From: a virus
Direction: 5' to 3' (one strand)
DNA length: 26,506 nt
Virus record (IMG/VR): IMGVR_UViG_3300050139_000132
Location: 1-26,506 of that record
Shown here piece after piece: positions 8,883 through 26,506 of this stretch. Made by a program: the position numbers and the translations under genes. Below the pieces are notes generated by a model. The model saw only the letters and a list, made by a program, of their open reading frames with translations, was not told the DNA's origin and searched no databases. Position 1 is the stretch's first letter. The number at the start of each line of letters is the position of its first letter.

Positions 8883-11800
8883 TTAGCCCATATGCGCCGA
8901 AATGTCGGAATAGGTAAACGACAAATTCGCCAGAATGAAATCCGGTGATCGCGTCGAAAGACGTAGTCCCGCTGAAAAGAACGAGACCCCGGGCGTTTTG
9001 GTCGCAAACACCGGCCAATAGGGCGGGTCCGCTGGAAAAGATGGCGGGAACACCCACGGGTTAAGTAATATCCGATCCGGCACCGAAACCAGCCCCGGGT
9101 CACTAGGCTGCGGCGTCATGCCCGAAACGGCGAGGTCCACGGTACAGTCGATCCCCGCCCCAGATTGATCCTGTGCTTGAATATACAGGTACACCAAATC
9201 CTTGATGAGAAAATTGTTCGACCCTCCGCCATAGAGCTTGGTATCGAGACGCTTCGTCAGGGTCGTCGACGGTTGGCGGAACATCGGCCAAAGCACGCGA
9301 CCGTCTGTCCCCCAGGCGTAGAGCTTCGAGGCGATCTTTTGCGTGCCAATAAAAGTCAGGTTACCCGGCGACTGCGAGACGATAACCCAGTCTTTCTCGT
9401 TCCACGCCGCCATCACCGTTCGCAGGTTGCCCGTGTCGGGGTCCTTTGTCGTCACCAGCACCAAGTAGTGCTTGATATCAAACAGGGTGGCACACGCCGC
9501 CGAGGGCACGACCCCGCCTTGTCCCGGCGTGAACACCGCGTTCTGCCACACGTCGGTCAGCTTCGCTGAAGCTAGAGTTGCCGAGCCGCCATACAGCCCA
9601 AACACCCCCACCTCGTTGGCGAACAGGATAGTCTTGCCAAAATCCTGTAAGGCGTAAGGGAAAGGAACCCCCGTCTGCGGGTCGACATTCTGGTAATTAA
9701 ACACGGTGGTCGCTGGGTTGCCACTGGTCGACACCCCCGAGATAATACTCACCGAGCCGTCACCAAACATATAGAGATAGCCGTTCGACTGGCGGATCGC
9801 GGTGTATTTGGTCTGTAAGAAACCGTCGGAATTAGTGAACAACACGCCCCCATCCGAGGTCGCGAAATCCGAGAACGATTCCGGCGCCGAGACGCTGAAA
9901 TTCCCGCCTGGCGGCAATGAGACATTAACCCCGGCATGTGGGTTCGCGATCCATACCCTCTGCTGGTAGGTCTCCATCGCCGAGCCACTGACCCCGAAGG
10001 GCATCAGCGAAACCGTGGCGGCCGCCGCGTTATTGCTGCCCGGCGCGATCTCGATAGTCGGCGCTGAGGTGTAGCCGCGCCCTACCGACGAGATCAGGAC
10101 CCCGGCGATCCCTACCGGCGCGAGCACCGCCTGCGCTGCGGCTCCCACACCGGGGTCGTTCACCTGCGCGGCCGTCGAGGACGCCGCGCTCTTGATTGCC
10201 GGCGTAATCACTACCTGGGGCTGCGTTGTGTAGCCCGCGCCACCATCCGAAACCACGATCTGAACTACTTGTCCTTGAGCCAAAACGGCAGTAGCCGTCG
10301 CATCGGTTGTCGCCCCACCTCCAGTGAAAGTGATGAGCGGCGGGATCTGGTATCCCGAGCCCCCCGCGGCCATATTAACGCGAACAATCGAAGTCGCCTC
10401 CAACTGCACAACCCCGGTTGCGCCCGCGCCGCCACCGCCTATAAAAGTAATGCCCGGAGCTGAGATAAACCCGGACCCCGGGTTAACAACCGTGATACCA
10501 CCTACGCCCCCGGGATTGACTGACGCAACGCCCGCCGCTCCGGTTCCATTGCCAGTGAACCCCACGGTCGGCGCCGCCGTGTACCCCGTGCCTGGGTTCG
10601 TGATGACAACTCCCGTAATGATCCCGTTCTCGACCGTCCCGCTTCCAACCGCCCCTGTCCCATCTCCATTGATCGTCACCGTGGGAACCCCCGTGTACCC
10701 GGACCCGGGGTTGGTGAGCGTGAGGCTTGTCACCTGCCCCCCGGTCACCGTCGCTGTTGCAGTCGCTCCGGTACCACCTCCACCTGATATGACCACTGAC
10801 GCCCCAGTGTACCCCGACCCCGCCGTGGTGACGAAAACTGTCGAAACCCCCGACCCGATCGTCGCGGTGCCCGTCGCTCCCGAGCCCCCGCCGCCACTGA
10901 AGGACACTATGGCGACCCCGGTATACCCGGACCCGGGGGCGGTCACATTCACCGCCGCTACGCCGCCTGCGTTAAGCGTCGCTTCGAGGATAGCCGAACT
11001 ATCCGACCCACCCCCTACGATCGAGACCGTCGCTTTAGTGTACCCCGTGCCCGTACTGACCAACGTAAGCCCGGTTACCGAGCCTCCCGCCACCGTGGCC
11101 GTAGCAGCTGCTCCGGTTCCATCTCCTGTGATAACGACCGTTGCTTCCGAGTACCCCGAGCCGTGGCCCACAAGTGTAAGCGCAGCCACTTGTCCTGCTG
11201 ATATAAAGGCCGTAGCCGTCGCTCCCGTCCCGCTGCCACTGAACGCCAACTGCACGATATCCCCCACCTGATAACCCGTACCGGGGTTGTCCACATGGAT
11301 ATCCACTACTCCTCCGCCTAGAATCGTGGTCGTGAAAGTCATTCCGGTACCACTGCCCCCAAAGGCAGCGACCGTGGGTACCGCCGTATAATTGCTGCCC
11401 GACGACAGTAAATTCACCCCCTCCGGTTGCGCACCCCCCGCTGCGAACAGAGTGACCCCATCCCAAGCCCAATAGTCGTTTGGGGTGTTGCGGTTGCTGA
11501 TAAGCAAGAGCTGCGTGCCCCACGACGCTACGGCTGGAAGCTCGCCGCCGGGGGTATAGAAGGTATGCACCGGCCCGATGGACGTGATCTCTCCCGAGTT
11601 GGTGTCGACCTGCGCCGCCGAGCCGTCGTCAAAGAACACCGCGACATAGTAGCTCGTGCCGAGCGTGTAGAAATAGAAGCAAATGATCGAATGTGCGCTA
11701 GCCGCCGCGTCGACGATCAGCGGCGCCCCAATATCCCACGCGGTGCGCAGCTTGCCTTCGCCAATCCGCAGGAAATTCTCATTCCAGACGAACTCATTAT

Positions 11801-11933
11801 CCGGGATCGCGGTAGGTGACGCCTGCTGGTTCATGCCGCCAAAGGGGAACGGCGAGTAAAACTTCGTGCCGGGAGGAATGCCCAGGCTCTGCGAGACAGC
11901 GCTACCTATGCCCTGCTGCGGGCGGCTAGCCAC
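8883..11933 (-). CDS. Stopper/gp10-like beta-propeller virion protein with a long repeat insertion
   Basis: This is 1016 residues. Residues 1-173 and 651-1016 read as one propeller-like protein. The N-terminus has PFPFGGMNQQASPTAIPDNE, then NENFLR and TYYVAVFF-type strands and WAWDGVTLF. The C-terminal part resumes with YQQRVWIANPHAG, GYLYMFGDGSVSII, TILFANEVGVFGLYGG and AAWNEKDWV. This is the style of P22 gp10-like head-closure proteins. Residues about 174-650 are about twelve 37-45-residue repeats built on G-(S/T)-G-Y-T, described separately. Without the insertion the protein would be about 540 residues. It follows the adaptor and a conserved virion gene, as expected of a tail stopper. The exact structural role is inferred. 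Confidence 0.75.
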   Translation of the reverse strand: MASRPQQGIGSAVSQSLGIPPGTKFYSPFPFGGMNQQASPTAIPDNEFVWNENFLRIGEGKLRTAWDIGAPLIVDAAASAHSIICFYFYTLGTSYYVAVFFDDGSAAQVDTNSGEITSIGPVHTFYTPGGELPAVASWGTQLLLISNRNTPNDYWAWDGVTLFAAGGAQPEGVNLLSSGSNYTAVPTVAAFGGSGTGMTFTTTILGGGVVDIHVDNPGTGYQVGDIVQLAFSGSGTGATATAFISAGQVAALTLVGHGSGYSEATVVITGDGTGAAATATVAGGSVTGLTLVSTGTGYTKATVSIVGGGSDSSAILEATLNAGGVAAVNVTAPGSGYTGVAIVSFSGGGGSGATGTATIGSGVSTVFVTTAGSGYTGASVVISGGGGTGATATATVTGGQVTSLTLTNPGSGYTGVPTVTINGDGTGAVGSGTVENGIITGVVITNPGTGYTAAPTVGFTGNGTGAAGVASVNPGGVGGITVVNPGSGFISAPGITFIGGGGAGATGVVQLEATSIVRVNMAAGGSGYQIPPLITFTGGGATTDATATAVLAQGQVVQIVVSDGGAGYTTQPQVVITPAIKSAASSTAAQVNDPGVGAAAQAVLAPVGIAGVLISSVGRGYTSAPTIEIAPGSNNAAAATVSLMPFGVSGSAMETYQQRVWIANPHAGVNVSLPPGGNFSVSAPESFSDFATSDGGVLFTNSDGFLQTKYTAIRQSNGYLYMFGDGSVSIISGVSTSGNPATTVFNYQNVDPQTGVPFPYALQDFGKTILFANEVGVFGLYGGSATLASAKLTDVWQNAVFTPGQGGVVPSAACATLFDIKHYLVLVTTKDPDTGNLRTVMAAWNEKDWVIVSQSPGNLTFIGTQKIASKLYAWGTDGRVLWPMFRQPSTTLTKRLDTKLYGGGSNNFLIKDLVYLYIQAQDQSGAGIDCTVDLAVSGMTPQPSDPGLVSVPDRILLNPWVFPPSFPADPPYWPVFATKTPGVSFFSAGLRLSTRSPDFILANLSFTYSDISAHMG
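9984..11414 (-). repeat. About 12 tandem G-x-G-Y coding repeats
   Basis: The minus strand encodes about a dozen diverged units of roughly 37-45 residues. Each starts like NPGSGYTGVPTVTINGDGTG and continues with Ala/Thr/Val strands and a hydrophobic turn. The conserved core is P-G-(S/T)-G-Y-(T/S)-x-x-P-x-V, often followed by F/I-x-G-G-G-x-G-A. Units differ enough at DNA level to be old, not a recent slippage tract. Similar units occur in the product of the gene at 13315-14394. Confidence 0.88.
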
Positions 11934-13314: not shown

Positions 13315-14394
13315 TTAGGTCGTCAGAACCACGGATACGTCGGGGAGGCCGCCGACCGCGCAGGTCACCACCGGAGCGGTAGTAATGATCGAAGCGGTAG
13401 CCAGCACCAGCACGGTTGGTGCCGAGGTGTAACACCCACCATCATAGACCACCGCGCCCGTCGCCGTCACGCCGTTACTTGACGTCGGAGCGAGAATGTC
13501 TGCATTGCGCGTCCGCACCAATTTCGACTGGGTCGAGACGTTGCGGTAGGCCGGAGCCGTCGCCGGGAAATTATCTTCTGCCGTGATGCGAACCACCGCT
13601 CCAGCCACACCCGCGCCGGCCGTACCGGCAGTAATGCCTGTAATTGCCCAGTTCATGATCGTCGTCGCCGCACCCGAGGCACCGCCACCGCCCGAGAAGG
13701 CGAGAGTGGGGATCGCGGTCAGGGCGGTGCCGTGATCGACACAAACCAGGCCAGTGATCGTGCCCGCGCCCGTGAGCGTGGCCGTAGCCACCGCGCCCGA
13801 GCCGGAACTGAGGCCGTTCTGGCCTTCGCGCGGATCGTTCGACAGAACGACGGTTGGAGCGGTAACATAACCCGCGCCCTGATCGACCACAGTAACCGTA
13901 ATGGTGCCCGCCGACAGGGCCGCGTAGGCCGTTGCCTGGATGCCACCCGGAGGAGGAGCCGAGATCGTCACCTGCGGCGCATAGACATACCCCGAGCCGC
14001 TGTTGTTCACAGTGATCGTAGTGCTAATCGCACCGCCAATGATCGCACGCCAGATCGAACCACCTGTCGAAGGCGTGACCACCGGTGCCGAGGTATAGCC
14101 CGTGCCCGCGTTGGTAATGAGCGCACCCACCGCGCAACCCGACTGGTTGGCGAGCCGGTAGTTGACGCCATCCGAATAGATGAACTGGACCGAGCCACCC
14201 GTCGTGCCACCACCGATCGTGCGCCACATCTGCGTGATCGGGTCATACTCCTGTAGAACGGTGTAGAGCCCAAGCTGGATATTATACCAACCGGCCGGGG
14301 TCAGGGGGTAAACCTGAGCCGCCTGAAGCGAGATGACGTTGCTAACCGCACCCTTGAGGCTCGGGGTAACGCCAGGACCAGAGAAAAGACCCAT
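13315..14394 (-). CDS. G-x-G-Y repeat virion protein (candidate decoration or head fibre)
   Basis: This is 359 residues. The start at 14394 is preceded by AAGGAG in the 12-base gap after the coat gene. Residues 1-88 are a unique domain (LQAAQVYPLTPAGWYNIQLG, then QEYDPITQMWRTIGGG). After this come about five units of the G-x-G-Y type: NAGTGYTSAPVVTPSTGG, NSGSGYVYAPQVTISA, DQGAGYVTAPTVVLSN, a degenerate DHGTALTAIPTLAFSG, and GGCYTSAPTVLVL. The same repeat fills the stopper-like protein. Its place right behind the coat gene, its own strong RBS and the terminator after it suggest a high-copy capsid decoration or head-fibre protein. This is inference. Confidence 0.75.
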   Translation of the reverse strand: MGLFSGPGVTPSLKGAVSNVISLQAAQVYPLTPAGWYNIQLGLYTVLQEYDPITQMWRTIGGGTTGGSVQFIYSDGVNYRLANQSGCAVGALITNAGTGYTSAPVVTPSTGGSIWRAIIGGAISTTITVNNSGSGYVYAPQVTISAPPPGGIQATAYAALSAGTITVTVVDQGAGYVTAPTVVLSNDPREGQNGLSSGSGAVATATLTGAGTITGLVCVDHGTALTAIPTLAFSGGGGASGAATTIMNWAITGITAGTAGAGVAGAVVRITAEDNFPATAPAYRNVSTQSKLVRTRNADILAPTSSNGVTATGAVVYDGGCYTSAPTVLVLATASIITTAPVVTCAVGGLPDVSVVLTT

Positions 14395-26086: not shown

Positions 26087-26114
26087 TTGACCTTGTGACG
26101 CAATCTGATAATAT
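26087..26114 (+). promoter_or_regulatory. Candidate promoter of the rightward small genes
   Basis: TTGACC (26087-26092), a 16-base spacer and TAATAT (26109-26114) lie 31 bases before the first ATG at 26145. The flanks are AT-rich. Confidence 0.6.
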
Positions 26115-26144: not shown

Positions 26145-26213
26145 ATGACTTACACTCAAGCCCAGTATGAACACGAGCGGGCAATCTGCGATACGTGGGC
26201 GCCTAGTAAGTGA
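26145..26213 (+). CDS. 22-residue peptide
   Basis: The ATG is preceded by AGAGGTGAT, six bases upstream, a near-consensus ribosome site. The product is MTYTQAQYEHERAICDTW then APSK. Its stop overlaps the next start as GTGA, so the pair looks translated. Function unknown. Confidence 0.55.
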   Translation: MTYTQAQYEHERAICDTWAPSK

Positions 26214-26296
26214 CTCTAAACCAATTTCTCACCCTCGCCTTGCTCTTGTGCTGCTATCTCGCAGCCAGGGGCGCTGATGACAAATGGAAGGACTGA
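26210..26296 (+). CDS. 28-residue hydrophobic peptide
   Basis: It starts at GTG 26210 in a GTGA overlap. LNQFLTLALLLCCYLAARG is a hydrophobic segment of about 18 residues with two Cys, followed by a short charged tail (ADDKWKD). It may be a small membrane protein or a signal peptide-like sequence. Function unknown. Confidence 0.5.
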   Translation: MTLNQFLTLALLLCCYLAARGADDKWKD

Positions 26297-26301
26297 CTGA
26301 C

Positions 26302-26506
26302 ATGACACAATACACCGAACGCAACGGCTGGCTTACCGACTCCGCCAATAACCGCGCTTCAATCGCCTACTGGGGCTCACGCGAAGCGGCGGAAGCCTCT
26401 CTCGCCTCGCTCAAGCATTGCCGCAATTGCGTGAACTGCTCGGACTGCTCGCGCTGCTCGGACTGCTCGAACTGCTCGCGCTGCTCGGACTGCTCGCGCT
26501 GCTCGG
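26302..26506 (+). CDS. Cysteine-triplet repeat protein, partial (runs off right edge)
   Basis: The ATG at 26302 has GGAAGGA upstream. The first 38 residues form a normal domain (TQYTERNGWLTDSANNRASI, then AYWGSREAAEASLASLK). From residue 40 on, cysteine occurs at every third residue without a break (HCRNCVNCSDCSRCSDCS…), ten times in 28 residues, mostly C-S-D, C-S-R or C-S-N. The frame is open at the edge, so total length is unknown. I recall similar cysteine-repeat proteins in other phages, all of unknown function. Metal binding, disulphide-ladder or beta-helix folds are possible. Confidence 0.75.
   Translation, partial: MTQYTERNGWLTDSANNRASIAYWGSREAAEASLASLKHCRNCVNCSDCSRCSDCSNCSRCSDCSRCS
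26437..26506 (+). repeat. 9-base tandem repeat TGCTCGNNN
   Basis: From 26437 on, TGCTCG recurs every nine bases to the edge (seven full units plus part), with third triplets GAC, CGC, GAC, AAC, CGC, GAC, CGC. It encodes C-S-D/R/N. Near-identity of units suggests recent expansion by slippage or unequal recombination. Confidence 0.9.

Follow-up and report, generated by a model that had tools for sequence, protein, structure and literature searches.

A phage cysteine-triplet repeat protein as a candidate length-adjustable solenoid rod

The window analyzed here, an entire virus record of 26506 bases, stops inside a gene that places a cysteine at every third residue. This raises the question of whether such a gene is real and, if so, what kind of structure a run of Cys-x-x triplets would form. 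The original prediction, made from the sequence alone, considered a metal-binding rod, a disulfide ladder and a beta-helix.

The array gene at the end of the record

The visible part of the gene encodes 68 amino acids, reading MTQYTERNGWLTDSANNRASIAYWGSREAAEASLASLKHCRNCVNCSDCSRCSDCSNCSRCSDCSRCS, and is open to the last base (Table 1). All ten cysteine codons are TGC and are spaced exactly 9 bases apart from position 26419 onward, which confirms that the cysteine at every third residue is encoded by a 9-base repeat. The units in the window are TGCCGCAAT and TGCGTGAAC, followed by TGCTCG plus GAC, CGC or AAC, and variation is found almost only in the third codon. TRF run on the window reports 8 copies of period 9 at 26435-26506, and also a period of 27 (93% match). 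The ribosome site that had been judged good is present ahead of the start codon.

Table 1. Features of the array gene and of other genes in the window
Feature	Coordinates	Strand	Remarks
3'-open ORF	26302..26506	+	N-cap plus first triplets of the (Cys-x-x)n array; alternative start, in frame, at ATG 26284
N-cap domain, type A	26302..26418	+	98/102 occurrences lead into an array; modeled with confidence in relatives
Cys array of 9-base units	26419..26506	+	Ten Cys codons visible; cut by the end of the record
GGAAGGA ribosome-binding-like site	26286..26292	+	9 nt before ATG 26302; read from sequence
Sigma-70-like promoter match	26087..26114	+	TTGACC-16-TAATAT, TG before the second hexamer; consensus match only
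Tiny upstream ORF	26145..26213	+	Overlaps the next ORF
Tiny upstream ORF	26210..26296	+	Directly upstream of the array gene
Glycine-rich repeat protein	8883..11933	-
Glycine-rich repeat protein	13315..14394	-

Two tiny overlapping ORFs lie directly upstream of the array gene. One is MTYTQAQYEHERAICDTWAPSK, and the other is a GTG-started hydrophobic peptide of 28 residues, VTLNQFLTLALLLCCYLAARGADDKWKD. The sigma-70-like match in Table 1 is upstream of both the small ORFs and the array gene, and two such sites were found upstream on the + strand versus 0.6 expected in shuffles. The gene had been placed early in a rightward operon. The early position agrees with its relatives, in which the genes within about 3 kb (YqaJ, DUF3799, RecT, ERF, HTH_3 and Peptidase_S24 repressor-type) form an early or recombination-type neighborhood. 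For the rightward operon, the two sigma-70-like sites and the two tiny ORFs give a weak indication.

The repeats have probably broken the assembly at the edge of the record. Of the 18 related ORFs truncated by a contig end, 16, with the window ORF among them, stop inside the array, and two contigs have the N-terminal half of the gene at one terminus and the C-terminal half at the opposite one (3300010218_000019, with halves L020 and L089, and 3300002098_000051, with halves L033 and L076). The repeat array would account for short-read assembly breaks at the array gene in such phages.

Relatives and domain architecture

A profile of the N-terminal domain (N-cap) finds 102 distinct ORFs, and in 98 of these a Cys array with six or more triplets follows; the remaining four are truncated at a contig end or contain a frame break. 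Because N-cap and array recur together in this way, the cysteine-array gene is real beyond chance, and the ordinary N-terminal domain that had been proposed ahead of the array is a recurrent one. The type A N-cap carries the motif W-[LI]-x-D-x-x-[GN]-N-[RK]-x-S-x-x-[YR]-[FW]-G-[ST]-x-E-A-A-x-x-[AS]-L-x-[ST]-L. Other N-cap types also occur, for example ...REDKxxNGVSxxFA...GCWNC in L022, L030 and gp68 of Vibrio phage 1.238.A. A conserved helical C-terminal domain with the motif W-H-x-C-x-T-T-H-C-R-A-G-W ends 69 of the 82 complete array ORFs.

When viral contigs were scanned, the window protein had 32 relatives, while the full-length alignment matched at least 153 stretches and the C-terminal domain 403; relatives are present in at least 150 viral contigs. 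Among bacteria, relatives occur in a few genomes, such as those of Kaistia, Bosea and Dyadobacter; in one bacterial order, 4 of 297 genomes carry the C-terminal domain. Five weak genome matches (L042-L045 and L047), which look like chance or other-frame repeats, were left out. The reverse-strand CNR/CNH "Cys" ORFs seen at some loci were rejected as antisense readings of the same arrays.

Several phages carry three to five or more tandem paralogues (L008, L031, L139 and L143). In L031 (8 kb), L137-L142 and L143 the Cys-array paralogues stand side by side with strongly diversified triplets, and they offer a natural data set for the coil period.

The family is already in databases, as PHROGs and under one InterPro label. 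PHROG 15341 matches residues 8-67 of the window protein with an E value of 9.7e-10 and relatives with E values down to 1e-29, and PHROG 31265 matches the C-terminal domain at about 1e-27 to 1e-29. These two profiles cover N-cap plus array and the C-terminal domain, respectively; both are annotated as unknown function, with no description of fold or repeat. No model in Pfam or NCBIfam reaches its cut-off for array, N-cap or C-terminal domain. A tblastn search of phage genomes with the window protein gave no match, probably through removal of the array by the low-complexity filter. In the open-access literature searched, we found no account of these phage proteins and no earlier description of the architecture, the pentapeptide exchange or the triplet constraint.

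Flavobacterium phage FL-1 (L131 480-1311; KY421186.2 at about 26440-27271) also has a Cys-array protein, which its annotation lacks. Because the frame of the deposited sequence is interrupted within the C-terminal domain, the annotation has only unrelated or partial ORFs there. Proteins of Gordonia phage Yvonnetastic (gp92; L128 1519-1986) and Synechococcus phage S-CRM01 (L129 1327-1857) contain a related CGTxxCxAGW motif as stand-alone proteins with no repeat rod, and may belong to a wider domain family.

Exchangeable repeats ahead of the C-terminal domain

The C-terminal domain is found behind more than one kind of repeat. Among 142 distinct C-terminal domains, 77 follow Cys arrays of the form (CSx)n and 63 follow pentapeptide repeats, which match Pfam PF00805 with E values of 6e-36 and 1e-44 in two examples. 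This Pfam family matches only in the alternative fusions and neither in the window protein nor in its Cys-array relatives. A single case in a Hyphomicrobiales genome (L146) fuses the same C-terminal domain to an LRR-like repeat, SGTAITALPEGLSVRGSLYL. The phage pentapeptide proteins share the layout and the variable repeat number of the Cys-array proteins, and D, R, S, G and N are likewise frequent at their non-core positions. They differ in having a five-residue repeat, a Leu/Ala core and a different N-terminal region. In a careful tree, the Cys-array domains fall on one side of a branch (84/73), and a single exchange between CSx and pentapeptide repeats is enough to explain it. Repeated swapping, suggested by a quick tree, was not upheld by the careful one. 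When the C-terminal domain was searched against the PDB with hmmsearch, RbfA (8e-4) and phytochrome B (0.1) were returned; both were set aside as chance matches, the domain model being all-helical.

Pentapeptide and leucine-rich repeats are solenoids. As repeats of both kinds also precede this C-terminal domain, the Cys array is most simply read as a further solenoid, and a rod of this type is its most likely form. Ahead of the tail domain the array can give way to a rod-forming repeat unrelated to it, which further suggests that phages use the array protein as a length-adjustable, cysteine-cored molecular rod.

The most serious alternative is that the array binds metal, either as a phage metallothionein or as a Zn, Cu or Fe-S cluster wire, with the conservation of cysteine reflecting this function. 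One residue in three is a cysteine, the CxxC spacing is essentially invariant, CxxCxxC is a classical metal or cluster motif, and the C-terminal domain has a conserved H-x-C...H-C. However, the same C-terminal domain is joined to pentapeptide or LRR-like repeats without such thiols, no metal-binding family is found in Pfam or NCBIfam, and the sampled neighbor genes include no metal-handling family. We consider this reading unlikely. Since other repeats replace the Cys array, thiol or metal chemistry would not seem to be common to the whole family. The thiols may bind metal, yet this would not be the shared function if the pentapeptide versions do the same job.

Fold of the array

AlphaFold2 was run on a full-length relative and on a near gap-free alignment of the N-cap and 24 triplets. 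The N-cap is modeled as strand-strand-helix with a pLDDT of about 80-92 and the helical C-terminal domain is confident, but in both runs the array has a pLDDT of 30-40. Structure prediction, which had been proposed as a check, thus gave no fold for the array with either alignment, and the array model was not used for the claim about its fold. Foldseek found no match in the PDB; in BFVD its only match covers 74 residues at 51% identity (E 2.4e-3), which fits the short C-terminal-domain ORF of phage FL-1. Lag autocorrelation and the modulus of array length gave no clear coil period, with a weak excess at lags of 4-5 triplets in diverse arrays.

By analogy, the best structural counterpart of the array would be the beetle antifreeze protein TmAFP. 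In beetle antifreeze proteins the side chains at residues 2, 5, 8 and 11 of a 12-residue coil point inward (PMC8038014). TmAFP and DcAFP (IPR016133; 1EZG) resemble the phage array in their tandem repeats and variable copy number, and on the solenoid reading the array would share with them the inward residue at every third position and the Cys-rich core. They differ from it in their 12-residue unit with two cysteines per coil (2 of the 4 inward residues), and in being secreted, disulfide-bonded and equipped with a TxT ice face. The phage array has cysteine at all every-third positions, lacks a TxT face and is joined to an N-cap and a C-terminal domain. TmAFP (1ezg) is among the weak phmmer matches with E values of 0.2-0.7, which are not significant and are driven by cysteine composition.

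These parallels give some room to an oxidized beta-helix with Cys-Cys bonds in each coil, exported or acting after lysis. An inward spacing at every third residue would be that of TmAFP (PMC8038014), and the relative from Vibrio phage 1.238.A (gp68) is labeled "insect antifreeze protein" by InterPro IPR016133. On the other hand, no signal peptide is evident in the array protein, the TmAFP consensus TCTxSxNCxxAx with its TxT ice-binding motif is absent from the arrays inspected, cysteine makes up only half of the inward residues of a TmAFP coil, and the sampled gene neighborhoods contain no pointer to ice or export. A disulfide ladder is less probable still than metal binding. Of the three structures named at the outset, the exchange with pentapeptide and LRR-like repeats favors a beta-helix-like solenoid.

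Constraint on the triplet and variation in length

In a set of 119 distinct arrays, cysteine takes 3073 of the 3080 in-phase positions (99.8%), a figure that is partly due to construction, as arrays were seeded on Cys runs and extended across single breaks. Serine occupies position 2 in 74% of cases in the same set, and D, G, R, N, Y and S predominate at the third position. In 46 diversified arrays cysteine is kept at 99.5% versus 46% for serine, and position 3 varies among D, N, G, S, Y and R. The strict three-residue period is borne out as a trait of the protein by this difference. The alternating charge that had been read into the window array is not general. The arrays are near neutral, with a mean net charge of -0.13 per triplet, and R-D neighbors are only slightly more frequent than in shuffled order (ratio 1.1-1.2).

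Within one array the Cys and Ser codons are near-uniform, but between phages many synonymous combinations occur (TGC/TGT with TCG/TCC/TCT/TCA/AGC/AGT). This indicates that selection keeps the pattern of the protein rather than the DNA, and the simplest reading would be repeated re-expansion of the unit in each lineage together with selection on the encoded pattern.

Comparison of repeat number across related phages gave arrays of 6-56 triplets with no preferred modulus. The suggestion that copy number may vary between isolates holds for two near-identical phages, L027 and L028, which are about 99.5% identical over 10 kb and carry 19 and 35 triplets, respectively, in frame and with both ends intact; the arrays of L027 and L029 agree with each other. 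Few relatives (L092, L210, and phage FL-1 inside the C-terminal domain) show the loss of frame that had been named beforehand as a sign against a protein, and in these it may be real or a sequencing error.

It is very improbable that the 9-base repeats serve as iterons or as a substrate for recombination or slippage, with the protein reading incidental. The units within an array are nearly identical DNA, and replication or recombination genes lie nearby in some phages. However, an iteron was rejected on the synonymous differences between the units of different phages, which keep the protein pattern, and on the retention of cysteine in diversified arrays; moreover, the frame is maintained through to the C-terminal domain, and other kinds of protein repeat can replace the array. 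Least probable of all, and largely refuted, is a TOMM precursor of the heterocycloanthracin type, in which Cys and Ser of the repeats are cyclized to thiazole or oxazole: Bacillus precursors likewise carry Cys-Xaa-Xaa repeats whose copy number differs between strains (PMC2674419), but they are short leader-plus-repeat peptides that end with the repeats and have a YcaO/cyclodehydratase system, whereas the phage arrays run up to 56 triplets, a conserved folded domain follows them in 69 of 82 complete ORFs, and none of 24 records, with the whole Kaistia and Bosea genomes among them, contains YcaO/cyclodehydratase (PF02624), whereas control genomes are positive.

Proposed model

We propose a modular protein consisting of an N-cap, a narrow beta-solenoid rod with a cysteine core, and a helical C-terminal domain, which would be made early and act on a host or DNA-processing target; we give this reading a probability of roughly 50%. 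The more specific proposal is tentative. It holds that a three-residue solenoid with an all-cysteine core is used by phages as an interchangeable rod of tunable length, which takes the place of a pentapeptide beta-helix before a shared effector or dimerization domain.

The protein would start with the small strand-strand-helix N-cap, followed by the rod of (Cys-Ser-x)n triplets with the cysteines as its core. The helical domain that follows the rod in most relatives presumably lies beyond the edge of the record for the window gene. The rod is most likely a narrow beta-solenoid of the TmAFP type, with every third side chain pointing inward and nearly all inward residues cysteine. The cysteines are perhaps packed thiols rather than disulfides, because the protein is probably cytoplasmic, no signal peptide being evident. 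Such a rod could fix a distance, with S, D, G, R, N and Y exposed on its outer face. Its length and surface pattern would then shift in steps of three residues, with the frame kept, when the 9-base units undergo slippage or unequal crossing-over.

The C-terminal helices may dimerize the rod or dock it on a partner, as in pentapeptide-repeat proteins. Dimerization is suggested because pentapeptide solenoids typically dimerize through their C-terminal helices (PMC10886550). The protein is probably made early, from a recombination or control region, and would act on a host or DNA-processing protein. The gyrase-binding DNA mimics MfpA and Qnr, rod-shaped pentapeptide solenoids with C-terminal helices, offer a comparison of working mode only. 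They have no homology to the Cys array, and the near-neutral phage arrays are not strongly acidic, so that an acidic rod acting as a DNA mimic was rejected.

If the array is a solenoid, it would rank as roughly the smallest regular protein repeat whose core is all cysteine, strongly constrained in hundreds of phages and yet replaceable by a chemically unrelated repeat. It would provide a natural experiment on how much change a solenoid core tolerates without loss of function, a possible source of thiol-cored nanorods, and a route to the function of the widespread, unnamed phage C-terminal domain (WHxCxTTHCRAGW).

Other genes in the window

Two further genes, both on the minus strand (Table 1), encode proteins with many glycine-rich units of the form GxGYxxxPxVxxxGxGAxAxAxVxxGxVxxIxV, which are probably another solenoid repeat. 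For the 1016-aa glycine-rich protein, the matching PHROGs are those for virion structural, baseplate wedge and head-closure proteins.
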